Assembly (NCBI RefSeq): GCF_027532945.1
Contig: NZ_JAPZTZ010000005.1
Location: forward strand, 62,001-126,000
Direction: 5' to 3'
Source of the DNA: Phreatobacter sp.
GTDB taxonomy: Bacteria > Pseudomonadota > Alphaproteobacteria > Rhizobiales > Phreatobacteraceae
DNA: 64,000 nucleotides
Shown here in pieces: positions 40,665 through 58,055 of this stretch (its first letter is position 1; every line of letters begins with the position of its first letter). Under the pieces are notes generated by a model. It saw only the letters and a list, made by a program, of their open reading frames with translations. It made no database searches and had not been told where the DNA came from. The position numbers and the translations under genes were made by a program.

Positions 40665-40727
40665 GCAGCTACAACCTCATTTGCGAACATCCCTGTGTTG
40701 TTCCCGCGTAACCCAGGGGTATCTGCC

Positions 40728-44058: not shown

Positions 44059-44063
44059 CGCCC

Positions 44064-45353
44064 ATGTCCGCCGCCCGCCCCTCCGTCGAGGTCGTGACCT
44101 TCGGCTGCCGGCTGAACACGTCGGAATCCGAAGTCATGCAGCGCCTCGCCGCCGAGTCCGGCCTGTCGGACGCCATCGTCGTCAATACCTGCGCCGTCAC
44201 CGGCGAAGCGACGCGCCAGGCGCGGCAGGCCATCCGCCGGCTGAAGCGCGAGAACCCGGCCGCCCGCATCATCGTCACCGGCTGCGCCGCCCAGACCGAG
44301 CCCGAGGTCTTCGCCGAGATGGCGGAGGTCGATCGCGTCATCGGCAACGACGAGAAGATGAAGGCCGAGGCCTGGGGCGAGACGCGTCGCGTGCTGGCGC
44401 AGGGGCCTGATTTCGGTGTCGCCGCATCGGAGAAGGTCGCGGTCAACGACATCATGGCGGTGCGCGAACAGGCCCTCCACCTCGTCGATGGCCTCACCGG
44501 ACGCTCGCGCGCCTTCGTCCAGGTGCAGAATGGCTGTGACCACCGCTGCACCTTCTGCATCATCCCGTTCGGGCGTGGAAACAGCCGCTCCGTGCCCATG
44601 GGCGAGGTGGTGGCGCAGGTCAGGAAGCTGGTCGAGAACGGCTATCGCGAGGTCGTGCTCACCGGCGTCGACATCACCAGCTACGGCCAGGGCCTGCCCG
44701 GCGAGCCGAAGCTCGGGGCGCTCTGCAAGGCCATCCTGCGCCATGTGCCCGAGCTCGAGCGCCTGCGCATCTCCTCCATCGATTCCGTCGAGGCCGACCC
44801 GGATCTCATGGCGGTGATCGCCGGAGAGGAACGGTTCATGCCGCATCTCCACCTCTCGCTTCAGGCGGGTGACGACATGGTGCTGAAGCGCATGAAGCGC
44901 CGGCACCTCAGGGACGATGCCATCCGCTTCTGCGACGAGGTGCGCCGGCTGCGCCCCGACATGGTCTTCGGCGCCGACATCATCGCCGGCTTCCCGACCG
45001 AGACCGAGGACATGTTCGCCCGGTCGCTGGCCATCGTCGACGAGTGCGGGCTCACCCACCTCCATGTCTTCCCCTTCTCGCCCCGGCCGGGCACTCCGGC
45101 GGCGCGCATGCCGCAGGTGGCGCGCGATGTGGTGAAGGAGCGGGCGAAGCGGCTGCGGGCCAAGGGCGAGGCGGCGCTTGCCACCCATCTCGACGGCATG
45201 GTGGGCCGCGCCTTCTCCGTGCTGGCCGAGACCGACCGCATCGCCCGCACCGGCCATTTCACGCCGGTCCGCCTCGCGGGCGACGTGGCGCCCGGCTCGA
45301 TCCTCACCGTGACGGTGACCGGCCATGACGGCCGCGAGGCGCTCGCCGCCTGA
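44064..45353 (+). CDS. mtaB: tRNA t6A37 methylthiotransferase MtaB
   Basis: A 429-aa radical-SAM methylthiotransferase that adds a methylthio group to t6A at position 37 of ANN-decoding tRNAs. The N-terminal UPF0004 domain provides three cluster cysteines (FGCRLN, NTCAVT, TGCAAQ). The radical-SAM motif NGCDHRCTFCIIP holds the CxxxCxxC cluster, and a short C-terminal TRAM-like region follows. MiaB is the main alternative; the FGCRLN N-terminus favours MtaB. It follows dapF by five bases. Confidence 0.94.
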   Translation: MSAARPSVEVVTFGCRLNTSESEVMQRLAAESGLSDAIVVNTCAVTGEATRQARQAIRRLKRENPAARIIVTGCAAQTEPEVFAEMAEVDRVIGNDEKMKAEAWGETRRVLAQGPDFGVAASEKVAVNDIMAVREQALHLVDGLTGRSRAFVQVQNGCDHRCTFCIIPFGRGNSRSVPMGEVVAQVRKLVENGYREVVLTGVDITSYGQGLPGEPKLGALCKAILRHVPELERLRISSIDSVEADPDLMAVIAGEERFMPHLHLSLQAGDDMVLKRMKRRHLRDDAIRFCDEVRRLRPDMVFGADIIAGFPTETEDMFARSLAIVDECGLTHLHVFPFSPRPGTPAARMPQVARDVVKERAKRLRAKGEAALATHLDGMVGRAFSVLAETDRIARTGHFTPVRLAGDVAPGSILTVTVTGHDGREALAA

Positions 45354-45378
45354 GCCTCTCCGTCGGAACCTGGCCCGC

Positions 45379-45403
45379 GGAACCCCGCTACACCCCCGGC
45401 GTT
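45379..45403 (+). promoter_or_regulatory. EcfG (general stress) promoter of the 27-aa peptide gene
   Basis: GGAAC at 45379-45383, a 16-base spacer and CGTT at 45400-45403, the full EcfG consensus. The 27-aa gene starts 34 bases downstream. Confidence 0.75.
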
Positions 45404-45436
45404 ATCCGGTTCGAACGCGAACACAGGAGACGCATC

Positions 45437-45520
45437 ATGGGACTGGGACGCGGCGCATTGCTCTGGCTTGTCGGCGTACCGCTGCCGATCATCATTCTCC
45501 TCGCGCTGTTCTGGCGCTGA
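45437..45520 (+). CDS. 27-aa hydrophobic small membrane protein
   Basis: A 27-residue protein with one membrane helix (about residues 7-25, LLWLVGVPLPIIILLALF) flanked by an Arg near each end. The ATG at 45437 has AGGAGA six bases upstream and an EcfG promoter 34 bases before it, so it is probably a real stress-induced gene that standard length cut-offs miss. Single-helix proteins of this size usually modulate larger membrane proteins. No partner is indicated other than neighbouring stress genes. Confidence 0.7.
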   Translation: MGLGRGALLWLVGVPLPIIILLALFWR

Positions 45521-45541
45521 GGCTTTCGGCCCTGGGGCGTA

Positions 45542-45736
45542 TCAGCGGGCGAGGTGGTCCGCCGGCACGACCAGCACGGCAGTGAGGCCGCCACCGCTCC
45601 AGTCATGGGTCAGCGCCCCCTTCAGCTGGCGCTGCACGCTCATCTCGATGAGCTGGCTGCCGAAGCCGCGATGGCGCGGTGCCGCGACGGCGCCGCGGCT
45701 CGCCAGTCGCCCGGCCCAGTCGCTGGAAGGGGTCAT
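45542..45736 (-). pseudogene. Remnant of an HWE/HisKA_2-type histidine kinase C-terminus
   Basis: About 64 codons whose sequence matches the end of HWE-family kinase ATPase domains: HRGFGSQLIEMSVQRQL, then DWSGGGLTAVLVVP. The N-box, DHp and rest of the ATPase are absent. It begins with an ATG overlapping the stop of the intact kinase gene at 45733. The intact kinase already has its own complete ATPase end, so this is left over from a second kinase gene rather than a frameshifted continuation. It could still be translated as a short peptide. Confidence 0.6.
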
Positions 45737-46767
45737 GTGTTCTGCGCTGCTTTCAATCCCGAGGCCGACCAGGCGACTTCCAGGCGGTCCTCGATGACCG
45801 GGGCGCGGAACGTCAGCCGGCACAGCGTTCCGCCGTCGGACGCCATGGTGAAGCGCCCTTCGAGCTGACCGGCGAAGGCGCGCAGCACCGTCATGCCGAT
45901 GCTCCGCGCTGTCGCGACATCGAAGCCGGCGGGAAGTCCGGGGCCGTCATCGCGCACCGTCAGCTCGCAATCGGCCCCGACGCGGGTGAGCGTCACCTGG
46001 ATGCTGGCGTGCTCGCGCGCGCCGAGCCCGTGCTCCAGCGCGTTGTTGATGCATTCGGTCATGATCAGCGCCACGGGAAGGAACTTGTCCTGCGGCAGGG
46101 CGATGGGCGTGATCGAGGTCGCCAGCGAGACCTTCCCGCCCGCACCAGCCGTGGCGAGGCAGCGTTCCGCCAGCTCACGGGTGAAGTCCTCGTCGATCCG
46201 GCCATCGGCGTGGGCGGGATCGTGGAACATGCGGTGGATGTCGGCGATGATGCCGACACGTTGCACGGCGTCGGCGAGGGCCCGTTTGGCGGCGGGATCG
46301 GTGACGGCACGCATCTGCACGTTGAGCAGCGCCGAGACGGATTGGAGATTGTTGCCGATCCGGTGCTGCAGCTCCTTGAACAGCGTGTCCCGCTGCCCGG
46401 CATGGTGCAGCGCCTTTTCCCTCTCGGTCCGCAAGGCAGCGAGCGTCGTCGTCAGCCGGTCGATGATCAGGATGTCCACCGCGCAGATGATGGCGAAGAA
46501 GGCGATGGCGACCGCCGAGGGCAGGTCGAGCTGGAAGCTGCGCTCGGGCTGGATGAAGAAATAGAGCGCCGCCAGGCCGCTCAGCCCGGCGCACAGGATG
46601 GCCGGCCCGGCGCCCGCGACGAAGGCGGTGATGATCACCGCCGGGAAAAAGGTCAGGAAGGGAAAGCCGGGAGGCAGAAAGGGTTCAGCCGCCAAGCGCA
46701 GGCCGAGAGCCGCGGCGAACAGTCCGATCCCCCAAGCAAACCGCTGCAACACTTGACCATGCGTCAT
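45733..46767 (-). CDS. DUF4118 sensor histidine kinase (HisKA_2 type)
   Basis: A 344-aa membrane kinase. Four hydrophobic segments (about residues 9-105) form a DUF4118/KdpD-like module; the dimerisation domain has phospho-His H135 in LQHRIGNNLQ, and the ATPase domain carries ECINNALEHG (N box) and DDGPGLPAGFD (G1). HisKA_2/HWE kinases commonly phosphorylate PhyR or single-domain regulators in the alphaproteobacterial stress response. Its location within the GSR block suggests a stress input. Its own upstream gap shows no EcfG promoter. Confidence 0.88.
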   Translation of the reverse strand: MTHGQVLQRFAWGIGLFAAALGLRLAAEPFLPPGFPFLTFFPAVIITAFVAGAGPAILCAGLSGLAALYFFIQPERSFQLDLPSAVAIAFFAIICAVDILIIDRLTTTLAALRTEREKALHHAGQRDTLFKELQHRIGNNLQSVSALLNVQMRAVTDPAAKRALADAVQRVGIIADIHRMFHDPAHADGRIDEDFTRELAERCLATAGAGGKVSLATSITPIALPQDKFLPVALIMTECINNALEHGLGAREHASIQVTLTRVGADCELTVRDDGPGLPAGFDVATARSIGMTVLRAFAGQLEGRFTMASDGGTLCRLTFRAPVIEDRLEVAWSASGLKAAQNT

Positions 46768-46883
46768 GACATTCCGGTCACGCTACCCCGGCCCTCTGTA
46801 CCATCAGACCGCCGGGAGGACATGTCAAAAGACGCAGGGCGGAACCCGCGGCGAACCGCGGGCCCCGGTAGGCCCCTCGTCGG

Positions 46884-47057
46884 TCAGGCGCGCCGTATCA
46901 GGCTCGCGACCACGGACACCACGAAGAGCACGATGGCGACCCAGAACAGCAGTTGCGCGCCGCTCATGGCCGTGCCGGCAACGCCGCCGAAGCCGAGGAA
47001 CGCGGCGACTACCGCCACGATGAGGAAAACGACGGCCCAGTAGAGAAGATTACCCAT
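46884..47057 (-). CDS. DUF1328 small membrane protein
   Basis: A 57-aa protein with two membrane helices (about 4-24 and 31-53), in the DUF1328/YtjA family: [21 protein letters not shown] followed by [19 protein letters not shown] (each in part). CAGGAG is seven bases before the ATG at 47057. Members are often in alphaproteobacterial stress regulons; here an EcfG-type promoter lies 66 bases upstream. Molecular function is unknown. Confidence 0.88.
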
Positions 47058-47122
47058 GGTTGGCTCCTGAACATTGGTGCTTGGGCCCGCGCGGGCCGGC
47101 GACATCGAGATGTCAACCAACA

Positions 47123-47147
47123 AACCGGCGATCGGCCTTCGGGTTCC
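47123..47147 (-). promoter_or_regulatory. EcfG-type promoter of the DUF1328 gene
   Basis: On the minus strand GGAAC (47147-47143), a 16-base spacer and GGTT (47126-47123). The -10 differs from CGTT only at the first base. Confidence 0.65.
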
Positions 47148-47228
47148 GCAGAACCAGTACGATGGTAGCGGCTGCGCCCCGCTCTTCTTCTCGTCGGCAT
47201 CACCGTGCCGCCGATGCCCCTCGCGAAA

Positions 47229-47254
47229 AGCCCCGCACCATCCGGTGCGGGGCT
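47229..47254 (-). terminator. Rho-independent terminator of the PRC-barrel gene
   Basis: An 11-bp perfect stem (47229-47239 with 47244-47254), four-base loop, followed on the minus strand by TTTCGCG. It begins 28 bases after the PRC-barrel stop codon. Confidence 0.8.
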
Positions 47255-47281
47255 CGATCGCGTCTTGAAGGGAGCGTCTCG

Positions 47282-47908
47282 TCAGATGCGCGAGCGCTCG
47301 AAGGTCGGCATGTCCTGCAGCTGCTTCTTGGTGCTGCTGACGAAGCCGACGAGCGTGCCGTCTGCCATCCGCATGAACCGGACATCCGCCAGCGCGATGG
47401 CGACGTTCTTCTCGCCCATCCCGAGGAACCCGCCGACGCCGAGCACGGCGTGGGTAATGCGCCCGTCATTGCCGATCACCAGGTCGTCGATCTTGCCGAT
47501 GGAATCGTGGCCATCGCGCATCGTACGCCACTGCGCGTCGCTCACCGGCGTGATGCGCAGGACGGCGGGCCCGGTCGCCGCGGTGCTGCCCGAACCCGGC
47601 AGGGGCTGGGTGGCTGCCGCACCGCTCGAGTTGCTCATCGTGCCGCTCGTGTCGGTCGATGGGCGCGTCACAGTCGATCCCGTGGTGGCGGGAGCGTCCG
47701 GCTTCGGCGCATAGATGGTGATGCCGACGAGCTTGCTGGAGGTCAGCTGCTCGTTGGCCATCTGCTGGGCTCGGGTGGTGGCCGCCGGGGCGGTCTGGGT
47801 CTGCGGCTGGGCAGTGGGGCTGGTGGTGCCGGGTGCGTTGGTCTGGGCCAGCGCGCCGGTGGCCAGAAGGGTGGCGACGGAGGCGGTGACGAGGTGTTTG
47901 CTGAACAT
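47282..47908 (-). CDS. Exported PRC-barrel domain protein
   Basis: A 208-aa exported protein: signal peptide (residues 1-21, ending GALAQ), a Thr/Ala/Gln/Pro-rich disordered stretch to about residue 125, and a C-terminal PRC-barrel-like domain including [37 protein letters not shown] (in part). PRC-barrel proteins of this type are frequent stress-induced periplasmic proteins in Rhizobiales. GAGGAA is five bases before the ATG at 47908, and an EcfG promoter lies 70 bases upstream. Confidence 0.85.
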
Positions 47909-47977
47909 GGCGTTCCTCACTGTGGCTCTTCGGAAAAGCAGCGGCGCGAAACGGTTGCCGCGCGCTGTCGAAGTCCC

Positions 47978-48002
47978 AACCGCAGCCGGAGTCCTTTGTT
48001 CC
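47978..48002 (-). promoter_or_regulatory. EcfG-type promoter of the PRC-barrel gene
   Basis: Minus-strand GGAAC (48002-47998), 16-base spacer, GGTT (47981-47978). Confidence 0.68.
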
Positions 48003-48034
48003 CATCACCGGACGATTGCGTCGTCCAAAGAAAC

Positions 48035-48931
48035 TTAGCCGGCGTTCCGGAACCGGCTCATCGCCTGCCAGTGATCGCGCCGCTCGCCCGCGGTCTGCGG
48101 GAAGCGGTCGCCTTCAACCTCCTCGGTGATCACCGCGAAGCTCTCCAGCCGATGCGCGCCGAAGGTCGAGATCATCGCGACATCGGCGGCGTCGCGGCCG
48201 CGCGCCACCGGGGTGCGGCCGATGCGCGGGCGATTGTGGCGGGCGTCGAAGGCATGCCAGCGCCCCTCCAGCAGCACCTCGAACCAGGCGCTGAAATCCA
48301 TCGGCTCGGGCACGGCCGGCAGGCCGATGTCGCCGAGATAACCGGTGACGTAGCGCGCGGGAATGTTGAGGCAGCGGCACAGCGTCAGTGCCAGATGGGC
48401 GAAGTCGCGGCACACGCCGGTGCGCTCGTCCCAGGCCTCGGCGGCGGTGCGGGTGCTGCGCGCCGCCATGTAGTCGAAGCGCAGGTGGCCATGGACGAGG
48501 TCGCAGACCGCCTGGACCTGGCGGCCGCCGGCCGGAACTGTGCCGAACCGCTCCCAGGCGAGCGCCATCAGCCGGTCGGTCTCGCAATACCGGCTCCCCG
48601 CGAGGAAGGGCAGGGCCTCCTTGGGCAGGTCCTGCGGCAGCGTCGCGGCCGCGTCCAGCGGCAGCACCTCCGGGAAGCCCGGATCGTGGATCATGCCCGC
48701 GGCGGTGAGCCGCGCGCCACCGGCCGGCACCAGCAGCCGGCGGGCGATATTGCCGAAGGGATCGATGAAGGGCTCGGTTGAAAGGCTCGCCCCGTCGGCA
48801 AGCGCGGTGACCTCGGGCGTGTCCGGCTGCACCAGGTCGCCCCTGCGGTCGGGATGAACGTCGAGCATGAGGATGGCGGGGGTCGCCTGCTCGCAGGAAA
48901 TGGTGATGTCGTAGCCGTAGCGGATATGCAT
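48035..48931 (-). CDS. Transglutaminase-like cysteine protease family protein
   Basis: A 298-aa cytoplasmic-looking transglutaminase-like protein. The catalytic triad is seen as Cys in ERTGVCRDFAHLAL, His in GRWHAFDARHN and a following Asp. The N-terminal beta-rich domain (about 1-95) begins HIRYGYDITISCEQATP. GGGAG is six bases before the ATG at 48931 and an EcfG promoter lies 63 bases upstream. Bacterial members act as proteases or amidases; the substrate is unknown. A second, divergent member is at 51387. Confidence 0.88.
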   Translation of the reverse strand: MHIRYGYDITISCEQATPAILMLDVHPDRRGDLVQPDTPEVTALADGASLSTEPFIDPFGNIARRLLVPAGGARLTAAGMIHDPGFPEVLPLDAAATLPQDLPKEALPFLAGSRYCETDRLMALAWERFGTVPAGGRQVQAVCDLVHGHLRFDYMAARSTRTAAEAWDERTGVCRDFAHLALTLCRCLNIPARYVTGYLGDIGLPAVPEPMDFSAWFEVLLEGRWHAFDARHNRPRIGRTPVARGRDAADVAMISTFGAHRLESFAVITEEVEGDRFPQTAGERRDHWQAMSRFRNAG

Positions 48932-48993
48932 GAAGGCTCCCGGCGTTGCCGGCCGCGTCCGTGGCGGACCCGTCGCCGATGCCTGTGGAGGCC

Positions 48994-49019
48994 AACGCCG
49001 CGCCTGCCGTGCCGGTTCC
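48994..49019 (-). promoter_or_regulatory. EcfG promoter of the first transglutaminase gene
   Basis: Minus-strand GGAAC (49019-49015), 17-base spacer, CGTT (48997-48994). It lies just before the stop of the 61-aa gene, so it gives the transglutaminase its own start. Confidence 0.72.
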
Positions 49020-49031
49020 CGCACCACCCTG

Positions 49032-49217
49032 TCAGAGGATGGGCCGCTCCACCAGATCCCGCTCGAAATAGGCGGCGATGCGGCGGTGGTCGGTCTTGAA
49101 CTCGGCCGTGAAGGCGATCTCGGCTTCGGTCTTGGGGTGGAAGGCCCGTTTCCGGCGCAACGGGCAGGTGTGGCACCAGGGGTGCAGCGACTGCCGGGTG
49201 ACAGGATGGGAGAGCAT
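49032..49217 (-). CDS. Small HxxC-containing hypothetical protein (61 aa)
   Basis: A 61-aa basic protein with HPWCHTCPLRRKRAFHPKTEAE (in part), whose Cys and His pattern near residues 12-18 could bind metal, and an amphipathic C-terminal stretch FKTDHRRIAAYFERDL. GAGGA is five bases before the ATG at 49217. I do not recognise the family. It is transcribed from the minus-strand half of the interlocked EcfG promoter. Confidence 0.72.
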   Translation of the reverse strand: MLSHPVTRQSLHPWCHTCPLRRKRAFHPKTEAEIAFTAEFKTDHRRIAAYFERDLVERPIL

Positions 49218-49265
49218 GGGTCCTCGTGGTCTCGGGGGCGCGTGGCAGCCCGACCGAACCCGCAT

Positions 49266-49290
49266 GGAACCCGGTACCATCGAAGGCGTT
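49266..49290 (+). promoter_or_regulatory. EcfG promoter of the BclA-like exporter gene (plus half of an interlocked pair)
   Basis: GGAAC (49266-49270), 16-base spacer, CGTT (49287-49290). The exporter gene starts 85 bases downstream. Confidence 0.75.
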
Positions 49291-49292
49291 CC
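49268..49292 (-). promoter_or_regulatory. EcfG-type promoter of the 61-aa gene (minus half of an interlocked pair)
   Basis: Minus-strand GGAAC (49292-49288), 16-base spacer, GGTT (49271-49268). Each -35 element overlaps the other promoter's -10 on the opposite strand. Confidence 0.7.
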
Positions 49293-49374
49293 CGGCTCGA
49301 CCCTTCGATCACGGGGCCGCCCCCTTGAAGGATCGGGAGACGGCGGGAGGGCCTCACGATCCGCCGGACCATTC

Positions 49375-51204
49375 ATGACCGACACCGCCGCCCGTTCAGC
49401 CGACGTCCTTCCGGCCCGCTCCCGATCGCGCTGCTTCTTCCGCATGGCCAATGGCTTCTGGAAGGGCCCTTCCGCCGGCCGGGCCTGGTTGCTGACCGTC
49501 GTCGTGCTGGTCTTCGCCTTCGCCCAGATCGGCGCGCAGGTCGGCATCAACGGCTGGAACCGGCTGTTCTTCGACGCACTCGAATCCAAGGACATCGGCG
49601 CCGTCATCAAAGCCATCAGCCTGCTGCCGCTGCTGCTCGGCGCGGCCGCTCTCACCGTGTCCGGCCTCGTGGTCTCGCGCATGCTGCTGCAGGTGCGCTG
49701 GCGCGAATGGGTCACCGGGCGCCTTGCCGGCTGGTGGATCGCCGACCAGCGCTATTATCGCCTCGGCTTCCTCGACACCGAGCACAAGGCTCCCGAATTC
49801 CGCATCGCCGAGGATGTCCGCATTGCCACCGAGCCGCTGGTCGAGTTCGCCATCGGCCTTCTGAGCGCCGCCGTCACGGCCCTGACCTTCGCCACCATCC
49901 TGTGGACGGTGGCCGGCTCCATCACCTTCGAGATCGCCGGCCGCACCGTCTTCATCCCCGCCTACATGGCCATCGCCGCGGTGGCCTATGCCACCGTCGC
50001 CTCCCTCGCCGCCTACTATGTGGGCCGCGCCCTGGTGGGCAAGGTCTCGACCAAGAACGAGATGGAGGCCCAGTTCCGCGCCGAGATGACCCGTCTGCGC
50101 GAGAATGCCGAGAGCATTGCGCTGATCAAGGGCGATGCCGACGAGCGCTCCACCGTCATTGCGAGCTATGGGCACGTCGTCGCCGCCTGGCTGGCGGTGG
50201 TGCGCCGCCAGGGTTTCCTCGCCCTCGTCCTCAACACCAATGGCGCGCTCTTCCCCGTCGTGCCGCTGCTGCTGGCTGCGCCGAAATTCCTTTCTGGCGA
50301 GCTCACCCTCGGCGGTGTGATGCAGGTCGCCGCCGCCTTCTCCGCCGTGCAGGCGGCCCTCATCTGGTTCGTCGATAACTTCGTCCGGCTCTCCGAGTGG
50401 TATGCCTCGGTCGTCCGGGTCGATGAACTCTCCGAGACCCTGGAGGAGCTCGACATCGGCACCATCATGGAGGAGGACCAGCAGATCAGCCTCGAGGAAA
50501 GCGACGACGACGCCATCCAGATCGAAAACCTCTCGCTCGCCCACCGCAACGGCCGCGTTGTCATCGATGACGCCTCCATCCGCATCGAGCCCGGCGAGAA
50601 GGTGCTCATCGTTGGCGAGAGCGGCACCGGCAAGAGCACGTTCATCCGCGCCCTCGCAGGACTGTGGCCCTGGGGTTCGGGCCGCATCGCCTTCCCCCGC
50701 GGCCTCCGTTACGCCTTCCTGCCGCAGAAGCCCTACATGCCGCGCGGCACGCTGAAGGACCTGATGCTCTATCCCGACGGCGAGGTTGCGGTCGCCGACA
50801 ACATCATCCGCGCGGCGATGGAGCGCTGCGGCCTCGGCTACATGGTCAAGCGCCTGAACGAGGAGGACGACTGGGATCGTGTGCTCTCCGGCGGCGAGCG
50901 CCAGCGCATCGGCTTCTGCCGGCTGCTCATCCAGAAGCCGGCGATCATCGTCATGGACGAGGCGACCGCCGCGCTCGACGAGGGCAGCCAGGACTCGCTC
51001 CTCTCCTTGCTCGACGACGAACTCGCCGCCTCCACGGTCATCAGCGTCGGCCACCGGCCGGGGCTCGAGGAGTTCCACGGCCGCAAGATCACCCTGACCC
51101 GCCGTCCCGCCGGCGCCCATATGAGCTCCGCACCCATCCGCCACTCCTTGTGGCGCGTCGCGCACAGCGCTGAACGCCGCAATGCGCTGGCCGACAGACG
51201 GTGA
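49375..51204 (+). CDS. BclA/SbmA/YddA-type ABC transporter (fused permease and ATPase)
   Basis: A 609-aa half-transporter with an SbmA/BacA-like membrane domain (about residues 40-340, five to six helices, WNRLFFDALESKD and EFRIAEDVRIAT motifs) and a C-terminal ATPase with Walker A GESGTGKST at 414-421 region, LSGGE at 504-508 and Walker B AIIVMDEATAALDEG. Relatives import or export peptides, and BclA protects rhizobia from plant peptides. Earlier in-frame starts fall before the EcfG promoter, so the ATG at 49375 is used. Confidence 0.9.
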   Translation: MTDTAARSADVLPARSRSRCFFRMANGFWKGPSAGRAWLLTVVVLVFAFAQIGAQVGINGWNRLFFDALESKDIGAVIKAISLLPLLLGAAALTVSGLVVSRMLLQVRWREWVTGRLAGWWIADQRYYRLGFLDTEHKAPEFRIAEDVRIATEPLVEFAIGLLSAAVTALTFATILWTVAGSITFEIAGRTVFIPAYMAIAAVAYATVASLAAYYVGRALVGKVSTKNEMEAQFRAEMTRLRENAESIALIKGDADERSTVIASYGHVVAAWLAVVRRQGFLALVLNTNGALFPVVPLLLAAPKFLSGELTLGGVMQVAAAFSAVQAALIWFVDNFVRLSEWYASVVRVDELSETLEELDIGTIMEEDQQISLEESDDDAIQIENLSLAHRNGRVVIDDASIRIEPGEKVLIVGESGTGKSTFIRALAGLWPWGSGRIAFPRGLRYAFLPQKPYMPRGTLKDLMLYPDGEVAVADNIIRAAMERCGLGYMVKRLNEEDDWDRVLSGGERQRIGFCRLLIQKPAIIVMDEATAALDEGSQDSLLSLLDDELAASTVISVGHRPGLEEFHGRKITLTRRPAGAHMSSAPIRHSLWRVAHSAERRNALADRR

Positions 51205-51246
51205 GGCAGGCAGTCATGATGGCGGACAGAAATCGCGGCACGCGAC

Positions 51247-51271
51247 GGAACTGTCACCACCTCCACGCGTT
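51247..51271 (+). promoter_or_regulatory. EcfG promoter upstream of a candidate small RNA
   Basis: GGAAC (51247-51251), 16-base spacer, CGTT (51268-51271). A terminator follows about 50 bases downstream, before any gene. Confidence 0.72.
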
Positions 51272-51277
51272 CATGGC

Positions 51278-51348
51278 ATGATCATCGCCATTTCCCTTCC
51301 CGCGATGTAGACCTCTTTCCTGAAGCCGCCTCGTGCGGCTTCTTTTTT
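51278..51348 (+). ncRNA. Candidate EcfG-dependent small RNA (about 70 nt)
   Basis: Between an EcfG promoter (CGTT ends at 51271) and an intrinsic terminator (stem 51322-51329 with 51335-51342, T-run 51343-51348). The RNA would carry C-rich single-stranded stretches TTTCCCTTCCC (about 51291) and CCTCTTTCC (about 51312), able to pair with ribosome-binding sites, as in the sigma-T-dependent sRNA GsrN of Caulobacter. It also encodes a 10-codon hydrophobic ORF (51278-51310), so a leader peptide is an alternative. It could equally be an attenuator of the transglutaminase gene. Confidence 0.55.
51322..51348 (+). terminator. Rho-independent terminator
   Basis: Eight-bp perfect stem (51322-51329 with 51335-51342), five-base loop CTCGT and six T. 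It is 118 bases after the exporter stop and 39 bases before the second transglutaminase gene. Confidence 0.85.
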
Positions 51349-51386
51349 GTCCGGATCTCGCGGGGGATCAGCCGGGGCCGTCAGCC

Positions 51387-52265
51387 ATGGACCTCCATCT
51401 GCGTCACGTCACGCGCTATCACTATTCTCAGCCGGTCATGTTCGGCCCGCACAAGCTGATGATCCGCCCGCGGGACAGTTTCGACCTGCGCATCCTCGAG
51501 ACCGAACTCGACATCTTCCCCGCCGCCGCGCTCGCCTGGTCGCACGATGTCTATGGCAACCCGGTGGCCCTCGCGACCTTCGCGGACGCCGCCGATCGGC
51601 TGGAGATCACCTCCTCGCTCGTCCTGCGCCGCTACGGCTCTGCCCTGTTCCGCAAGCCCGGCCCGGCGACCGCCGCCTTCGTGCCGCATTATTCCGATGG
51701 CGAGCGCATCGTCCTCCAGCCCTTCATCACCCCCGCCAGCGCCGATGCCGACGGTGCGCTTGCCGCCTGGCTCGCCGGCGTGCTGCAGGACCCGGTCGGC
51801 GGCGATTCCCTGTCGCGGCTCGCCGAGGCGATCCATGCCGGCTTCGGCTATTCGGTCCGCTACGAGGAGGGCACGCAGGCGCCCTCCCAGACACTGGCGC
51901 TTGGCGCCGGCTCCTGCCGCGACCTCGCCTGGCTCTTCATCGAGGCCGTTCGCCGCCTCGGCTATGCCGCCCGTTTCGTCACCGGCTATCTCCACAACGC
52001 CACAGGCGAGGCAGGCTCCAACCGCGCCGCCGTGGGGCTCACCCATGCCTGGGCCGAGGTCTTCGTGCCGGGGGACGGCTGGGTGGAGTTCGACCCGACC
52101 AATGCCCTTGTCGCCGACCCCCATCTCATCCGGGTGGCGGTGGCGCGCGTCCCCACGGATGCCTCGCCGGTGTCGGGCAGCTTCACCGGACCCTTCGGGG
52201 CGCAGATCGGGCTGTGGGTCGGCGTCGAGATCACCCCGATTCAGGGCTTTGCCGCCGTCGCCTGA
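51387..52265 (+). CDS. Transglutaminase-like cysteine protease family protein (second copy)
   Basis: A 292-aa transglutaminase-like protein with N-terminal bacterial transglutaminase domain (about 1-80, LRHVTRYHYSQPV) and a core with catalytic Cys in GAGSCRDLAWL, His in THAWAEVFVPGDGW and Asp in VEFDPTN. It is of the type often adjacent to circularly permuted ATP-grasp genes, which are absent here. It lies downstream of a terminator, so readthrough or a separate promoter must serve it. It is not a recent copy of the 48035 gene, as the sequences differ widely. Confidence 0.9.
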   Translation: MDLHLRHVTRYHYSQPVMFGPHKLMIRPRDSFDLRILETELDIFPAAALAWSHDVYGNPVALATFADAADRLEITSSLVLRRYGSALFRKPGPATAAFVPHYSDGERIVLQPFITPASADADGALAAWLAGVLQDPVGGDSLSRLAEAIHAGFGYSVRYEEGTQAPSQTLALGAGSCRDLAWLFIEAVRRLGYAARFVTGYLHNATGEAGSNRAAVGLTHAWAEVFVPGDGWVEFDPTNALVADPHLIRVAVARVPTDASPVSGSFTGPFGAQIGLWVGVEITPIQGFAAVA

Positions 52266-52274
52266 CGCCCGGCG

Positions 52275-53921
52275 TCAGAGCGGGATGTCCCAGCGTCCGG
52301 TCCCGTCCTCGATGGCACCGCTCCGCCGTGTGGCGCCGATCTGGCGCAGCAGTCCGTGGACGATCTTGGTGTCGATGGCGCCGGTGCGGCGATCGTCGGT
52401 GGCCACCGACAGGGCGAGATGGTCGCCCCCGCCGCAGCTGACCTCCACCATCAGGTGGTCCGTGTGGGCCTCCTCGATGGCGTGGCAGGCGATCTCGACC
52501 ACCAGGAGGCCGAGCGGAATGGCGCGGTCCACCACCAGCGCCAGATCCGCCTCCGCCCTCGCCGTGACCCAGGGCCGGCCCGCCTGCAACAGCCCGTTGA
52601 GCATCACCGCCACCTCGTCGAGGAAGGGTTGCAGCTCGACCGGGCGCATCTCGCCCTGGGCGAGGGCATGGCGATAGGCGATGGAGAGGACCTGCACCTT
52701 CGCCTCGATGGCGGCGAGCACCGGCCGATGCTCCGGCCCATGTTGGCGGCGGGCGAGGCTGATATAGCTCTGCGCGACCTGGAGGCTGTTCTTCACCCGG
52801 TGGTGCAGCTCGCGCACCAGGTGGCGGTTCGCGCCGATCGTGACGTTGAGCCGATCGACGCGCTCCGCCTGGTCGGACATCAGCGCATTGAAGGCCTCCG
52901 ATACCCGCCGGATGTCGTCGGGCATCGCCGGATCGACCGGGGCCTCCTGCGGCTGCTGCGAGGCGCGCGCCACAGCCGCCGCCTCGATGCCGCGGATCCA
53001 GCGGACGATATTGGTGTCGATCGCCAGCGAATAGACAGCGAAGAGCAGCATCAGCGTCACCAGCGGCGTCAGCAGCAGGGCGATGAACTGGAGGAAGGCG
53101 GCGCGCTCGGCCTGCTGGTCGAAGCGGGCCAGGACATAGAGGTCGGGCTCGGCCACCTGCTGCATACCGAAGGTCGCCGTCGTACCGGTGCGGGTCAGCG
53201 CCTCCCAGCGTGTCAGCTGCGTCGTCGCAGGCAGCTCGGCCGGCAGCCAGCTCATATCGTCGTCGGCCGCGCCGCGGGTGATGACCACGTCGGCGGGGGC
53301 GCGCACGAGCCCGACGATGGTGCCGCCGCCAAGGGCGCCGAGATCGAAGGTGCGGTCCATGATCGTGGCGTTGACCAGCAGCACCCCCTCCATGCCGGTG
53401 ATGCCGCTGTCGCCGCGCCGGGCGTAAATGACCATATAGCGCTGGTCGCCAACCATGGTGACGCCGTAGCTCGTGTCGGCGATCTCGGCGCCGATCCAGG
53501 TCGGACTGCGCGCCCGCGACCGGTAATTCTCGACCAGCGCCCCGAGCGCGTCCTCGGTGATGCGGGCATCATTGCCGGAGAAGCAGCGCGAGCCGCCGCC
53601 GATCCGCATGGTGATGCCGCTGACGCCGATATTGTCGGCGATCAGCCGCTCGGCCACCGCCCGGCACTGGCCATCCGTCCCGCCGATCGCCGCCACGCTG
53701 GTGCTGGCGGTCAGCAGCGTGCGCAGCGACTCCCGGTACCAGATGCGGGTGCGGACGGAGAAATTGCCCACCGTCTGCAATTGCGAGGCCTCGATGGACG
53801 TCAGCACAGACCGATAGGTCGCGACCGCCGTCACCGCCGTGATGATGGCGATGGGCAGGATCACGAGCACGATCAGGGCCAGGAGCCGGCCCCGAACCGT
53901 TCGGAAGGCGGTGACGTTCAT
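52275..53921 (-). CDS. PhyK-like HWE/HisKA_2 sensor histidine kinase
   Basis: A 548-aa membrane kinase: one membrane helix near 13-33, a periplasmic sensor domain to about 315, a second helix (about 322-345), a linker, and a HisKA_2 domain with phospho-His H374 in HHRVKNSLQ. The ATPase domain ends the protein and is rather divergent: I see EIACHAIEEAH in place of the usual EALTNAFKHA-type N box. It is the third gene of the nepR-ecfG-phyK unit, four bases after ecfG, the usual position of the PhyR kinase. Confidence 0.87.
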   Translation of the reverse strand: MNVTAFRTVRGRLLALIVLVILPIAIITAVTAVATYRSVLTSIEASQLQTVGNFSVRTRIWYRESLRTLLTASTSVAAIGGTDGQCRAVAERLIADNIGVSGITMRIGGGSRCFSGNDARITEDALGALVENYRSRARSPTWIGAEIADTSYGVTMVGDQRYMVIYARRGDSGITGMEGVLLVNATIMDRTFDLGALGGGTIVGLVRAPADVVITRGAADDDMSWLPAELPATTQLTRWEALTRTGTTATFGMQQVAEPDLYVLARFDQQAERAAFLQFIALLLTPLVTLMLLFAVYSLAIDTNIVRWIRGIEAAAVARASQQPQEAPVDPAMPDDIRRVSEAFNALMSDQAERVDRLNVTIGANRHLVRELHHRVKNSLQVAQSYISLARRQHGPEHRPVLAAIEAKVQVLSIAYRHALAQGEMRPVELQPFLDEVAVMLNGLLQAGRPWVTARAEADLALVVDRAIPLGLLVVEIACHAIEEAHTDHLMVEVSCGGGDHLALSVATDDRRTGAIDTKIVHGLLRQIGATRRSGAIEDGTGRWDIPL

Positions 53922-53925
53922 CGCT

Positions 53926-54486
53926 TCATGTACGGGCCATGTCGGCCGGGCTTTGGTGGATGACGGCTGAGGTGCTGCGCTCCGGGCCGATGTCGTCGAC
54001 GCTGGAAATGCCCAGGAGGTCGGCGAGCTTGACGCGGGCACGGTTGACGCGGCTCTTGATGGTGCCCACGGCGACACCGCAGATCTCCGCGGCCTCCTCG
54101 TAGGACAGCCCGGAGGCGCCGACCATGATCAGCACCTCGCGATGTTCCTCGGAGAGCTTGGCGAGGGCAATGCGGAAATCCGCGAGGTCGAGGGCGCTCT
54201 CCTGCTCGCCCGACACGGTCAGGCGCTGGGCATAGGTGCCGTCGCTGTCCTGAACCTCGCGGCCGCGCTTCCGATAGAGCGAGTAGTAGGTGTTGCGCAG
54301 GATGGTGAAGAGCCAGGCGCGCAGGCTGGTGCCCGGCTGGAATTTCTCGGAATTGCCCCAGGCCTTGAGCATCGTATCCTGCACCAGGTCGTCAGCCTGC
54401 TGCACCGAGCCGCACAGTGACACGGCGAAGGCGCGCAGGTTCGACAACTCGGCGATGAGGCCCTCGCGGAACTCGTCACTGGCCAT
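53926..54486 (-). CDS. ecfG: General stress response sigma factor EcfG
   Basis: A 186-aa ECF sigma factor. Region 2 includes DDLVQDTMLKAW (about 32-43) and region 4 the helix-turn-helix SYEEAAEICGVAVGTIKSRVNRAR (in part, about 127-150). It directs RNA polymerase to GGAAC-N16/17-CGTT promoters. In unstressed cells it is held by NepR; phosphorylated PhyR frees it. It overlaps nepR by 11 bases. The nine matching promoters nearby include the one for nepR-ecfG itself, giving positive autoregulation. Confidence 0.96.
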   Translation of the reverse strand: MASDEFREGLIAELSNLRAFAVSLCGSVQQADDLVQDTMLKAWGNSEKFQPGTSLRAWLFTILRNTYYSLYRKRGREVQDSDGTYAQRLTVSGEQESALDLADFRIALAKLSEEHREVLIMVGASGLSYEEAAEICGVAVGTIKSRVNRARVKLADLLGISSVDDIGPERSTSAVIHQSPADMART

Positions 54487-54673
54487 TCTTGCGCTCCTTG
54501 GCCTCGAGTTCGGCCAGGAGGACGAGGAACCGGTCCGGCACGGGGGCCTTGATCAGGTCGTCGTAATGGGCCTTCAGCGATCTGCCGATGGCGTCCTGGA
54601 TGCGGGGGTCGAGCACGATGTCGCGTTCCACCTCGGGTTCCTCCGCCTCGCGTTTGTCCGCTTTTTCGCGCAT
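54476..54673 (-). CDS. nepR: Anti-sigma factor NepR
   Basis: A 65-aa NepR with the conserved core IQDAIGRSLKAHYDDLIKAPVPDRFLVLL (in part), which binds EcfG or the sigma-like domain of PhyR. The ATG at 54673 is chosen over 54721 because GAGGAGA precedes it by six bases and because the mapped EcfG promoter (-10 at 54725-54722) would place the longer start before the transcript begins. It overlaps ecfG by 11 bases. Confidence 0.95.
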   Translation of the reverse strand: MREKADKREAEEPEVERDIVLDPRIQDAIGRSLKAHYDDLIKAPVPDRFLVLLAELEAKERKNGQ

Positions 54674-54721
54674 CGATATCTCCTCGACATCCCCGCGGGA
54701 TGTGACGCCGATCCAACCCAA

Positions 54722-54746
54722 AACGCATCAGGCGATGGGCGGTTCC
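54722..54746 (-). promoter_or_regulatory. EcfG promoter of nepR-ecfG-phyK
   Basis: Minus-strand GGAAC (54746-54742), 16-base spacer, CGTT (54725-54722). It indicates autoregulation. An A-rich tract (54753-54767) lies between it and phyR; I find no EcfG promoter facing phyR. Confidence 0.78.
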
Positions 54747-54825
54747 GTCGTAGAAAAAAAATAAAAAGCTTGCCAAACCAACGGCTTCCGGGCTGCCTTT
54801 AGCGCTATTCGAGCAGGAGTTCGGC

Positions 54826-55623
54826 ATGACCATCGCTGCGGAAATCGCACCGCATCTCCCGTATCTGCGTCGCTTCGCCCGCGCCCTCAACGGCTCGCAG
54901 GCGGGCGGCGATTCCTATGTCGTGGCGACCCTCGAGGCGCTGGTCGCGGATCCGTCGACCTTCCCGCGGGACGTCCCGGCCCGCATCGCACTCTACCGCA
55001 CCTTCCTGAAGCTGTGGTCGTCGATGCCCGTCAACATGGTGCATCCGAACACGGCGGTCATCCGGGCCGGCGCGGTCGAACGGAACATCGAAGCTTTGAC
55101 GCCCCGGCCCCGCCAGGCGTTCCTATTGCGCACCGTCGAGGGCTTCGCGCCCGACGATGTCGCCGCCATTCTCGACATTCCGGTCGATGAGGCGAGCGGC
55201 CTCATCGAGCAGGCTGGCCGCGAGATCGCCGAGCAGGTGGCGACCGACGTGCTCATCATCGAGGACGAGCCGATCATCGCCCTCGACATCGAGACCCTTG
55301 TCCAGGAGCTCGGCCATTCCGTCACCGGCATCGCCCGCACCCACAAGGAGGCGGTGGCCCTTGTCGCCCGCAAGCGGCCCGGCCTTGTGCTCGCCGACAT
55401 CCAGCTCGCCGACGGGTCGTCGGGTCTTGAGGCCGTGGCGGAGATCCTCCAGTCCATCGACCTGCCGGTGATCTTCATCACCGCCTACCCTGAGCGCCTG
55501 CTGACCGGCGACCGGCCCGAGCCGGCCTTCCTCATCACCAAGCCCTTCCAGCCGGAGGCGGTGAAGGCGGCGATCAGCCAGGCCCTGTTCTTCGATCGGC
55601 GCTCCGAGCGGAAGGTCGCCTGA
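54826..55623 (+). CDS. phyR: Response regulator PhyR (sigma-mimic anti-anti-sigma factor)
   Basis: A 265-aa protein with an N-terminal sigma-like domain (residues 1-135) that sequesters NepR and a C-terminal receiver (141-258). Receiver residues are E146/D147, phosphoacceptor D191, T219 and K239. The ITKPFQPEAV ending is typical of the receivers in this signalling class. AGGAG is six bases before the ATG. Divergent from nepR-ecfG-phyK across a 152-base gap. Confidence 0.97.
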   Translation: MTIAAEIAPHLPYLRRFARALNGSQAGGDSYVVATLEALVADPSTFPRDVPARIALYRTFLKLWSSMPVNMVHPNTAVIRAGAVERNIEALTPRPRQAFLLRTVEGFAPDDVAAILDIPVDEASGLIEQAGREIAEQVATDVLIIEDEPIIALDIETLVQELGHSVTGIARTHKEAVALVARKRPGLVLADIQLADGSSGLEAVAEILQSIDLPVIFITAYPERLLTGDRPEPAFLITKPFQPEAVKAAISQALFFDRRSERKVA

Positions 55624-55665
55624 CGGCGCGCGCGATGCAGTCGGATGAAATGTCGAGGGCCGGCG

Positions 55666-55691
55666 GGAACTCCCGTCGGCCCTCGACCGTT
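55666..55691 (+). promoter_or_regulatory. EcfG promoter of the 52-aa protein gene
   Basis: GGAAC (55666-55670), 17-base spacer, CGTT (55688-55691). It begins 43 bases after the phyR stop. Confidence 0.7.
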
Positions 55692-55736
55692 TCAGGAGAG
55701 ATGGCGGAAGGTCCCTCGCTTATCCCGGAGAGCCTC

Positions 55737-55895
55737 ATGGTGTCGGCAGTCTCGGCGATCGTGGTCGCAACGGCGGCCGGCCTTGTGGTCGCAGGCATCG
55801 TGGACGTCGGTCCCGTTGCCATCGATGCAGGCCTCCTGGTCGCGGCTTTTGCCGGGGCCGGTCTCGTCCCCCGTTTCGCGGAGGCCGGCCATTGA
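55737..55895 (+). CDS. 52-aa small membrane protein under EcfG control
   Basis: A 52-residue, very hydrophobic protein with one or two membrane segments (SAVSAIVVATAAGLVVAGIV, then DAGLLVAAFAGAGLV). The ATG at 55737 has GGAGAG about six bases upstream and lies 46 bases after the EcfG -10 element, like the other genes of the block. An ATG at 55701 would be almost leaderless. No family recognised; its place beside phyR hints at a role in the stress response. Confidence 0.6.
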   Translation: MVSAVSAIVVATAAGLVVAGIVDVGPVAIDAGLLVAAFAGAGLVPRFAEAGH

Positions 55896-56043
55896 CTGTG
55901 CCCAGTGCCGCGGGCCGGTTGCTCATCGCATGCTCGTGCCCGGGTGGCATGGCGGATGACGGGGCGTTCATGGATTCGTGGTACCAGGAGGCTTCTTGGG
56001 GACCATTGGGGTCGCCGCGCGGTGCGGCCCGGGTTGGTTGAGG

Positions 56044-56430
56044 ATGGACAGGCAGCGCATACTCATCGTCGAGGATGATCCGTTCATCGCCATGGATATC
56101 GAGGCCGCTGTCCTCGACGACCTCGGCGACGCGACGGAGGTCATCGTCGTCGACAGTCTTCGCGAGGCGCAGAGCCTTGCCGAGGCTGATCTCGACTGCG
56201 CCCTCCTCGACGTCGACGTGGTCGGCGGCAAGACCTTCGACGTGGCCCTGAAGCTGCGCGCCCGCGGCACGCCCTTCGCATTCGTCTCGGGATCGCTGCC
56301 GTCGGACCTGCCGGAGGAACTGGCCGGGACGGTCTTCGTCCCCAAGCCTTTCCATTCCCGCGACATCATCGGCTTCGTCACGCGTGCCCTGAAGGCCGGT
56401 TCCGTCGGCTCGTCGGGCAGTGCCAGCTGA
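56044..56430 (+). CDS. Single-domain response regulator
   Basis: A 128-aa receiver with no output domain. Acidic pocket E10/D11/D12, phosphoacceptor D56 (ALLDVDVVGG), S82 and K101 (VPKPFHSRDI) are in place. In Alphaproteobacteria such regulators often share HWE kinases with PhyR and tune GSR activity. The frame is open from a GTG at 55978, but the ATG at 56044 starts the receiver fold. Neither start has a strong ribosome site. Confidence 0.85.
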   Translation: MDRQRILIVEDDPFIAMDIEAAVLDDLGDATEVIVVDSLREAQSLAEADLDCALLDVDVVGGKTFDVALKLRARGTPFAFVSGSLPSDLPEELAGTVFVPKPFHSRDIIGFVTRALKAGSVGSSGSAS

Positions 56431-56448
56431 GGCTTAAGGCTCTCGCCG

Positions 56449-57108
56449 TCAGCCCAGCAGCGTTGACCGGTGTGCCCGCTCGGCGGCGAGCCTGATGGCG
56501 GCCGGCACCGGCTCGATCACCGGAACCCCCACCTGACCCGCGATCTCACGCGCCGCCACGGCGAGCGGTCCGCCACCGATGACGATGGCCTTGGCGCCGT
56601 TGTCGTGGACGGCCCGGCGGCAGGCGGCGAGCAGCGCCGTCACCAGCCCCTTGCGGTCGGCCATGACCTGGTGCGCGTCGCCGGGGGTGAGCACCGTGCC
56701 GAGGAAGCGGTCGGCATGGCCATAGGCCATGGCCCGCTCGGCGATGCTGTCCACGAGGTCGGCGGTGGTGGTGACCACAGCGAAATCGCCATGGGCGGCC
56801 GCCTCCGCCATGCCCGCCTCGGCGATGCCGGTGACGGGGATGGCGACACTGCGCCGGAGCTCGGACACAGCCGGGTCGCCGAAGGCGGCGACGATGAGGC
56901 CGTGATAGCCGAAGGGGGGCCGCGCCGCCATCAGCGCCAGCACCGCGTCATGGGCGATGGCGAGCTCGGTCGGCCCTGTGATGAGCGGCACGCCGAAGGG
57001 CGCCGAGATTCCGTCGATCTGCGCCTCGGGCATGGCCTCGCGCGCGATGCCGACCATCGCGGCGGTCGTCGCCTGGCTGGTGTTGGGATTGACGAGGAGG
57101 AAGCGCAT
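56449..57108 (-). CDS. Asp/Glu/hydantoin racemase family protein lacking both catalytic cysteines
   Basis: A 219-aa protein with the racemase fold: VNPNTSQATTAAMVG opening, ITGPTELAIAHDAV and the later GGGPLAVAAREIA region. True hydantoin and aspartate racemases use two Cys, in ACFGDP and LGCAG contexts; here these read AAFGDP (residue 75 Ala) and IGGGP (residue 179 Gly). It is therefore unlikely to be a two-base racemase. It may bind a ureide or hydantoin without isomerising it, or have another activity. It overlaps nothing and is five bases from the PuuE-like gene. Confidence 0.82.
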   Translation of the reverse strand: MRFLLVNPNTSQATTAAMVGIAREAMPEAQIDGISAPFGVPLITGPTELAIAHDAVLALMAARPPFGYHGLIVAAFGDPAVSELRRSVAIPVTGIAEAGMAEAAAHGDFAVVTTTADLVDSIAERAMAYGHADRFLGTVLTPGDAHQVMADRKGLVTALLAACRRAVHDNGAKAIVIGGGPLAVAAREIAGQVGVPVIEPVPAAIRLAAERAHRSTLLG

Positions 57109-57113
57109 GGGGG

Positions 57114-58055
57114 TCAGGCCGGGACGGAGGCGGCGAAGGAGCGGGCGATATCGGCGCGGGTGCCGACATAGATGCGGTCGCCGAGGGCGCGCAGCCGGTC
57201 GAGGGTCCGCGTCAGGGCGGCGAAGCGGCCGGGACGGCCGACGATGCGGAGGTGGAAGCCGAGATTGAGGAGCCGCGGGCGGCCGCGCTCGGCCTCGGCC
57301 AGCAGCACCTCCAGCGAATCTGCCACATAGGCAACCATGGCGTCGGCGGTGACGAAGCCGTTGGGGTGGAAGAACTTCATGTCATTGGCGTCGAGCGCAT
57401 AGGGCACCACCAGCAGCGGCCGCTCGCCCGACCGGTCCCAATAGGGCAGGTCGTCGTCGAAGGCGTTGGAGGTGTAGAGGAAGCCGCGTTCGACCAGCAG
57501 CCCGCGCGTCCAGTCGCTCTCTGCGCCCCGGCAGAAAAAGCCAACGGGGCGCGGCGCGCCGGCCGCCTGCATGACCGCGACGCAGCGGTCGAGGTCAGCG
57601 GCTTCGGCCTCGCGGCTGCGGTAGTCCGCATGGGGACGCCAGCGCCAGCCGTGGACAGCCGCCTCATGGCCATCGGCGACGAGGGCGGCGAGCAGCGCCG
57701 GCGAGCGCTCCACGGCCCGGCCGCAGCACAGCCAGGTGGCGGGGATGCCGCGCTCGCGCAGCGCCTCCAGGATGCGCCAGAAGCCGGCGCGGGTGCCATA
57801 GGCGAAGATCTGCTCCTGGCCCATGTCGCGGGTGCCGGGCTCGACGACGCTGACGACCTCGCCAATGCGCTCGCTCGCCGGGTCGCCGTCCCCGACCTGC
57901 CACTCCGCGCCTTCCTCGAGGTTGATATTCACGCTCACCGCAAGGCGCGCCCCGTTCGGCCAGGCAAGGCGCGGCCAGGCGCCACCATAGCCGACGAGGT
58001 CGCGCGCCGCGCCCGCGCCCCCGCTTTCCGCGGCGACCGTCATCTCCCCCGTCAT
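57114..58055 (-). CDS. Polysaccharide-deacetylase-family allantoinase-like protein (PuuE type), copy 1
   Basis: A 313-aa protein of the NodB/PuuE fold. The metal/active-site HGWRW motif is in DGHEAAVHGWRWRPHADYRS (in part) and later motifs CRGAESDWTRGL and RLLNLGFHLRIVGRPGR match PuuE-like proteins, which open the allantoin ring or act on related amides. GGGAGG is six bases before the ATG at 58055. It forms a two-gene unit with the racemase-family gene and is divergent from the ABC importer operon, which includes a second member. Confidence 0.85.
   Translation of the reverse strand: MTGEMTVAAESGGAGAARDLVGYGGAWPRLAWPNGARLAVSVNINLEEGAEWQVGDGDPASERIGEVVSVVEPGTRDMGQEQIFAYGTRAGFWRILEALRERGIPATWLCCGRAVERSPALLAALVADGHEAAVHGWRWRPHADYRSREAEAADLDRCVAVMQAAGAPRPVGFFCRGAESDWTRGLLVERGFLYTSNAFDDDLPYWDRSGERPLLVVPYALDANDMKFFHPNGFVTADAMVAYVADSLEVLLAEAERGRPRLLNLGFHLRIVGRPGRFAALTRTLDRLRALGDRIYVGTRADIARSFAASVPA

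Follow-up and report, generated by a model that had tools for sequence, protein, structure and literature searches.

Why do so many promoter motifs of one kind crowd around the regulators of the alphaproteobacterial general stress response (GSR), and are they served by the regulator beside them? The stretch of Phreatobacter sp. DNA analyzed here (64,000 nucleotides, contig NZ_JAPZTZ010000005.1 of assembly GCF_027532945.1, hereafter the window) raises this question, as it holds phyR, nepR, and ecfG in an 11-kb block (45379–56430) together with many matches to GGAAC-N16/17-(C/G)GTT, the promoter motif of EcfG, an extracytoplasmic function (ECF) sigma factor. We found that the block is very probably a GSR locus in which EcfG would fire eight local promoter elements, and that similar clusters surround phyR in other members of the order.

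A cluster of EcfG-type sites around the GSR core

A first inspection of the DNA without database searches (the sequence-only reading) had listed nine sites, namely 45379+, 47147-, 48002-, 49019-, 49292-, 49266+, 51247+, 54746-, and 55666+. We located all of them, each with a GGAAC −35 box, a (C/G)GTT −10 box, and a spacer of 16 or 17 bases. Two, 49266+ and 49292-, are a single 27-bp palindromic element (49266–49292, both strands) read in both directions, which leaves eight DNA elements spanning 10.3 kb. The position check bore out the orientation of the sites toward their assigned genes. The distance to the start codon, given as 34 to 85 bases, stood for seven sites (33 to 84 bases) but not for the other two. 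The ATG of the second transglutaminase gene is 115 bases past 51247+, and 55666+ lies either 9 bases before an ATG at 55701 or 46 bases before one at 55738. The latter is preceded by GGAGAG and is probably the start of this 52-amino acid open reading frame (ORF). The sequence-only reading had also seen no equally good site in the other gaps that it scanned, which is not quite true. It missed a tenth match, 40734- (40710–40734, minus strand; GGAAC-N16-GGTT), located outside the block, 45 bases before and in the right orientation toward an ORF that starts at 40664 and appears LysR-like from its sequence. This match may be a chance occurrence.

The 10 matches in the window compare with a mean of 0.81 and a maximum of 5 in 100 dinucleotide shuffles. 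When the spacer was varied, N16 gave eight matches and N17 two, as compared to zero to two at each of 21 other spacers (8–15 and 18–30). Across the genome (4.13 Mb, 35 contigs), the motif occurs 107 times against 53.8 expected from spacers 20–29, so that roughly half of these matches are background and about 53 are excess. The genome-wide scan, which the sequence-only reading had proposed as a check, upheld the local density: nine matches lie within 10 kb of phyR, counting both readings of the palindrome separately, as compared to 0.50 predicted by the overall density in this genome (Poisson P = 3.3e-9). We further examined 113 phyR neighborhoods, comprising this one, 32 loci of relatives, and the 80 best named loci, many of them from Mesorhizobium and thus not independent. 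In these, the counts of the two boxes were 491 at N16 and 145 at N17, as compared to 17–50 at each of 20 other spacers. A reversed-pattern control in 33 loci yielded 10 sites versus 186 for the true pattern (0 versus 9 at this locus). Permutation of the motif 200 times gave a mean of 73 matches (sd 56) against 636 for the true form, and only two one-base-shifted versions of the latter (335 and 254) exceeded 179. Thus, although background makes up about half of the genome matches and permuted motifs also occur, the spacer control refutes a mere accident of base composition, in which GGAAC and SGTT are simply common, and the shuffles and the reversed pattern leave this explanation practically no chance.

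Pfam searches confirmed the PhyR-NepR-EcfG core. The phyR gene (54826–55623, plus strand) encodes sigma-like and receiver domains (PF22029, PF22233, and PF00072), nepR (54476–54673, minus strand) an anti-sigma factor (PF18557), and ecfG (53926–54486, minus strand) a sigma factor with regions 2 and 4. The nepR and ecfG genes overlap and are divergent from phyR, while an HWE/HisKA_2 sensor kinase gene (52275–53921, minus strand) begins 4 bases after ecfG. Because of this overlap and this short gap, the site at 54722–54746 (54746-, minus strand) probably drives all three genes as one operon, and nepR-ecfG would thereby be autoregulated. No exact N16/17 site of its own was found before phyR in any of the 11 genus loci (gap 54747–54825 in the window, and L002–L011). 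A promoter of this type before phyR is given as usual in the pertinent parts of PMC4814048 and PMC8103513. Because only 60 of the 113 loci have an exact N16/17 site in that position, it is no strict requirement of a GSR locus.

We propose that the locus operates through the canonical PhyR/NepR/EcfG partner switch, as outlined in the corresponding part of PMC8103513. Phosphorylated PhyR would remove NepR and free EcfG, and EcfG–RNA polymerase would then fire the eight elements. The nepR-ecfG promoter would provide feedback, probably including the adjoining kinase. Further targets would be a DUF1328 protein, a PRC-barrel protein, one transglutaminase, and a 27-amino acid miniprotein, with the two-way element serving an ABC exporter and a decayed Crp/Fnr gene, and the 55666+ element a small ORF and a receiver gene. 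Last would come a GsrN-like small RNA (sRNA), terminated by a hairpin of its own ahead of the second transglutaminase gene. We infer the EcfG dependence of these promoters.

Most promoters are also present before orthologous genes

We compared the promoters at 20 of the 112 other loci, the 10 of the genus and 10 of the nearest named ones, allowing spacers of 15–18 at up to 260 bases and counting near full-length orthologues only. The nearest named relatives were Bosea-type strains, in a search from which records very near the window may be left out. Because the scan requires exact boxes, recurrence was judged by how many orthologues have a site; conservation of the boxes themselves is no independent measure. 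Such a site was found before 11 of 12 orthologues of the ABC exporter gene (49375–51204, plus strand; ABC_membrane_2 and ABC_tran; two partial matches dropped) and before all five of the PRC-barrel gene (47282–47908, minus strand, with its site at 47978–48002; three partial dropped). The gene for transglutaminase-like protein 1 (48035–48931, minus strand, with an N17 site at 48994–49019) had one in four of six (seven partial dropped), and nepR in 15 of the 18 beside phyR (one match away from phyR dropped). The 55666+ element (55666–55691, N17) precedes the 52-amino acid ORF (55738–55895, plus strand, its start chosen from the gap and the GGAGAG context) and a gene for a single-domain response regulator (56044–56430, plus strand; Pfam match below the cutoff), which has its own EcfG site in five of five Bosea-type loci (L034–L038). 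The 16–17 spacer bases differ freely among relatives while the promoters recur before the same genes.

Recent acquisition of the cluster as a stress island has nothing direct in its favor and is very hard to credit, given that the neighborhood has a GC content of 0.68 versus 0.687 for the window and that the positions of genes and sites are common to several genus members.

An AAC in the −35 box is widespread among ECF promoters, and the sites could serve another ECF sigma factor with similar −35 and −10 boxes. We consider this improbable, as the nepR-ecfG promoter itself bears the motif, in the large majority of orthologues counted above, and as GGAAC-N16-CGTT and GAAC-N16,17-C/GGTT are published EcfG motifs in the relevant parts of the Rhizobium etli (PMC3892343) and Methylobacterium extorquens (PMC4814048) studies.

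Several observations weigh against the proposed working of the locus. As about half of the genome matches are background, single sites can be due to chance, and those with GGTT as the −10 box (47147-, 48002-, 49292-, and 40734- outside the block) are the weakest. Only two of four orthologues of the DUF1328 gene (46884–47057, minus strand, 57 amino acids, with its site at 47123–47147) are preceded by a site, as are 5 of 10 orthologues of the Crp/Fnr gene. Moreover, among the 22 loci from the order's other families, 3 lack any site near phyR.

EcfG-type sites gather around phyR in the order

The sequence-only reading had taken the packing as unusual. We found local enrichment (P < 0.01) in all 11 same-genus loci and in 13 of the 22 other-family loci, which rules out a feature unique to this genome. 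With 300 bases around the phyR start left out, the 113 loci contained 490 sites as compared to 62 expected; at least three sites were present in 76 loci and none in 15. The density per 10 kb was 5.4 at less than 2.5 kb from phyR, 2.3 at 10–15 kb, 0.9 at 15–20 kb, and 0.35–0.5 beyond 20 kb (spacer controls, 0.14–0.72), in a profile of 10 genomes that were chosen for long contigs and include several of the richest clusters, so that the inner values are on the high side. As for the share of strict N16-CGTT sites near phyR, the highest of 30 rows were those of G012, G023, G031, and G037, with five to seven of an estimated 9–13 excess sites (error 6–7) in the 20 kb round phyR. The other rows ranged from 0 to 0.34, one of them without excess, and these shares overall carry errors of 5–11 sites per genome.

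In other families, the genome-wide motif excess had a median ratio of 1.13 with a PhyR match (n = 20) versus 1.06 without (n = 29), a weak difference (one-sided P = 0.019) in which "without" denotes no match at E 1e-40 with this query, so that some such genomes surely have a more distant PhyR. Two genomes with phyR, G024 and G040, showed no genome-wide excess. The same-genus G001 gave no PhyR match at E 1e-40, yet it has the highest motif excess of the 61 genomes. In G028 there are two phyR genes (L014 and L033, 66 and 40% identical to this one), each with a cluster (5 and 7 sites per 20 kb).

Our tentative proposal, to which we give slightly less than even chances, is that EcfG promoters are generally drawn to the phyR locus in the order, their density rising approximately 10-fold toward phyR over 15–20 kb. 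This region would contain perhaps half of the strict-consensus regulon in some genomes (a noisy estimate), and the regulon would include an unrecognized family of membrane miniproteins of 23–28 residues that mostly keeps its EcfG promoter anywhere. The cluster has the look of a neighborhood that was inherited and changes slowly, alike in position in close relatives and with partly other genes in other families, as grouped by an automatic, uncurated ORF screen. Inheritance of an old neighborhood would explain the genus pattern, while the differing members in other families hint at repeated gathering.

A predicted GsrN-like sRNA lies between 51247+ and the second transglutaminase gene

The sequence-only reading had counted two transglutaminases among the regulon members. 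Between 51247+ (51247–51271, plus strand) and the gene for the second of them, transglutaminase-like protein 2 (51387–52265, plus strand), however, lies a predicted sRNA with a terminator, of about 73 nt (51278–51350, plus strand, both ends predicted). It consists of a 5′ stem with a C-rich loop (CAUUUCCCUUCCC), a GACCUCU linker, and a terminator hairpin at about 51322–51350 with a T tract (TTTTTT). Its fold was calculated at −20.9 kcal/mol as compared to −10.8 for shuffles (z = −3.65; 3 of 200 shuffles as stable). A covariance model made from five genus copies detected the sRNA in 8 of 12 genus genomes, at E 1e-10 or better in one run and 2.6e-12 or better in another, including this one and the other four model sources; there was no convincing match in G001, G003, G007, and G009. 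An exact EcfG site precedes six of the eight copies and a one-mismatch site (TGTT) the other two, while the linker is unchanged in all eight. The C-rich loop is predicted to be exposed in this genome's copy and in the lowest-energy fold of six of seven relatives. Shorter RNAs of the same layout occupy the same gap in two Bosea-type loci (L034 and L037); L035 is a weaker case with a one-mismatch site, and L036 is unclear.

Next to this, we screened all 636 sites for a terminator preceded by a C-rich 5′ hairpin, using thresholds of our own. This yielded 20 candidates in 19 loci: five genus copies, one before the ABC gene (L004 -5590+) that looks accidental, and 14 elsewhere. Of these 14 outside the genus, 13 lie 1.2–2.5 kb on the phyR side. 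Of 619 matches at control spacings, 2 were positive, both of them overlapping true sites.

The most serious alternative is that 51247+ drives transglutaminase 2 and that the hairpin is a leader attenuator rather than an sRNA terminator. In its favor, the order site-hairpin-gene is kept in four genus relatives and two Bosea-type loci, and some read-through into the gene is conceivable. We nevertheless regard it as unlikely. The 115-base gap to the ATG holds a GC hairpin and then TTTTTT; 6 of 11 near full-length transglutaminase 2 orthologues have an exact site, all six with a hairpin-terminator between, and none has a site alone. In addition, conservation of the RNA far exceeds that of the preceding promoter spacer, and the RNA has a C-rich loop as described for GsrN in the matching part of PMC5869019. 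Transglutaminase 2 as a proven direct EcfG target was thus rejected from the orthologue comparison, and the gene is probably not a direct target.

The features of GsrN-like RNAs given in that part of PMC5869019 are intergenic transcription, an EcfG site, and closeness to the GSR locus, together with an exposed C-rich 5′ loop. The site, the closeness, and the loop hold for the predicted sRNA, which sits 3.5 kb from phyR and would be transcribed and depend on EcfG for its expression. A search of 44000–58000 against Rfam gave no match at E 1. Three results count against the prediction of a GsrN-like RNA: the lowest-energy fold of the L002 copy pairs the loop, the fold of the L008 copy is only modestly better than shuffles (z = −1.81), and covariation of the stem is weak and nonsignificant, with one two-sided change, a level reached by 137 of 500 shuffles. 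Covariation was set aside as proof.

Weak matches to the model were also seen in four other families (L122, L123, L124, and L125, about 1501–1566). In all four, a conserved stretch made up of AACAGGGAGGCGTCAAAC and a following GAGTGG..CCACTC hairpin adjoins a terminator-like hairpin, and possibly represents a separate conserved RNA or leader.

A conserved, predicted miniprotein mostly keeps its EcfG-type promoter

The site at 45379–45403 (plus strand) precedes an ORF for a 27-amino acid miniprotein, MGLGRGALLWLVGVPLPIIILLALFWR (45437–45520, plus strand), which belongs to a conserved ORF family and probably has one membrane span, as its sequence suggests. At E 0.1 or better, our search gave 27 matches, of which the weak ones are doubtful, spread over 22 of the 61 genomes; rows of the query alignment came from three of these 22, among them the present one. 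Among the best 17 of the 27 matches (E 1.5e-5 or better), 16 were clean ORFs of 23–28 amino acids. An exact EcfG site lies 25–48 bases before the start in 12 of these 16 and a one-mismatch site in two more. The site is kept by copies in G003, G009, and G045 that are separated from phyR by about 0.86 and 3.1 Mb or sit on a different contig, whereas a G037 copy 8.6 kb from phyR has none, nor does the second G045 copy. Thus, the promoter tends to follow the miniprotein gene and not the place.

The copies differ 863, 216, and 1448 times at codon positions 1, 2, and 3, and 977 of 1769 codon differences are synonymous. This is the pattern of a coding sequence. Translation of the miniprotein is presumed. 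No Pfam or NCBIfam match was obtained at E 0.01, a threshold search in which such a short sequence can be lost by filters. Peptide strings of the family gave no match in the open literature, which says little as most papers are outside that search, and the corresponding part of PMC4842269 has nothing on the miniprotein.

Other genes of the block

The 61-amino acid ORF at 49032–49217 (minus strand), which the sequence-only reading had counted among tiny proteins of unknown role, is the deletion remnant of a Crp/Fnr-type regulator. Its G006 orthologue encodes 252 amino acids with cNMP-binding and HTH_Crp_2 domains, and the remnant is 573 bases shorter, in frame. The ORF itself gave no Pfam match, with neither the cNMP-binding nor the HTH_Crp domain found. 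Of the relative's 8-base repeats, one pair (ATCGCCGC) has a spacing of exactly 573 bases and sits at the break points; the 573-base difference could also be an assembly error. An EcfG site is still present before the remnant, and Crp genes of the same group have sites in other families. A different shortened Crp/Fnr copy, of 77 amino acids and without an exact site, is present in G004.

The two-way element before this remnant was considered as a general device, an idea that was dropped; there are five such pairs among the 100 matches listed of the 107 in the genome. A DUF4118-HisKA_2 sensor kinase gene (45733–46767, minus strand) has no exact EcfG site of its own and no full-length orthologue in the genus phyR neighborhoods, where only partial matches of 24–33% identity were found. 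A tRNA scan detected none.

Relation to known systems

Our data turn the remark that regulon members lie near their regulator into a distance effect measured within a single order. Whether sigma-factor regulons assemble about their regulators thereby becomes a testable question. The data also point to two genes that annotation easily misses: a conserved miniprotein, possibly a common effector of the stress response in alphaproteobacteria, and a predicted GsrN-like sRNA, which occupies a different position.

The motif and its spacing are the same as in the EcfG regulons of Sphingomonas melonis (PMC6599016), R. etli (PMC3892343), and M. extorquens (PMC4814048), as far as the matching parts of these papers describe them. 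A PRC-barrel protein is among the S. melonis targets (PMC6599016). None of those parts reports a distance-dependent cluster, which is not a claim that none has been published.

The arrangement agrees with the alphaproteobacterial GSR locus as presented in part of PMC8103513, with phyR divergent from nepR-ecfG, an adjoining kinase, and an EcfG-type promoter before nepR. In contrast to the GSR locus elsewhere, seven further promoter elements lie within 10 kb, and phyR in this genus is without an exact site. The predicted sRNA resembles R. etli ReC64, a noncoding RNA with an EcfG1 motif in the ecfG1-phyR region (matching part of PMC3892343), a likeness at the level of description. It likewise shares with GsrN of Caulobacter and its predicted Rhizobiaceae homologues (corresponding part of Tien et al. 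2018, PMC5869019) an upstream EcfG site, a place near the GSR locus, and a C-rich loop near the 5′ end, the features by which it is likened to GsrN. It has a terminator here, and it differs in its length of about 73 nt and in the lack of an Rfam match. Unlike 13 of the 14 candidates outside the genus, which are on the phyR side, it lies 3.5 kb away on the ecfG side, between the ABC exporter and the transglutaminase.

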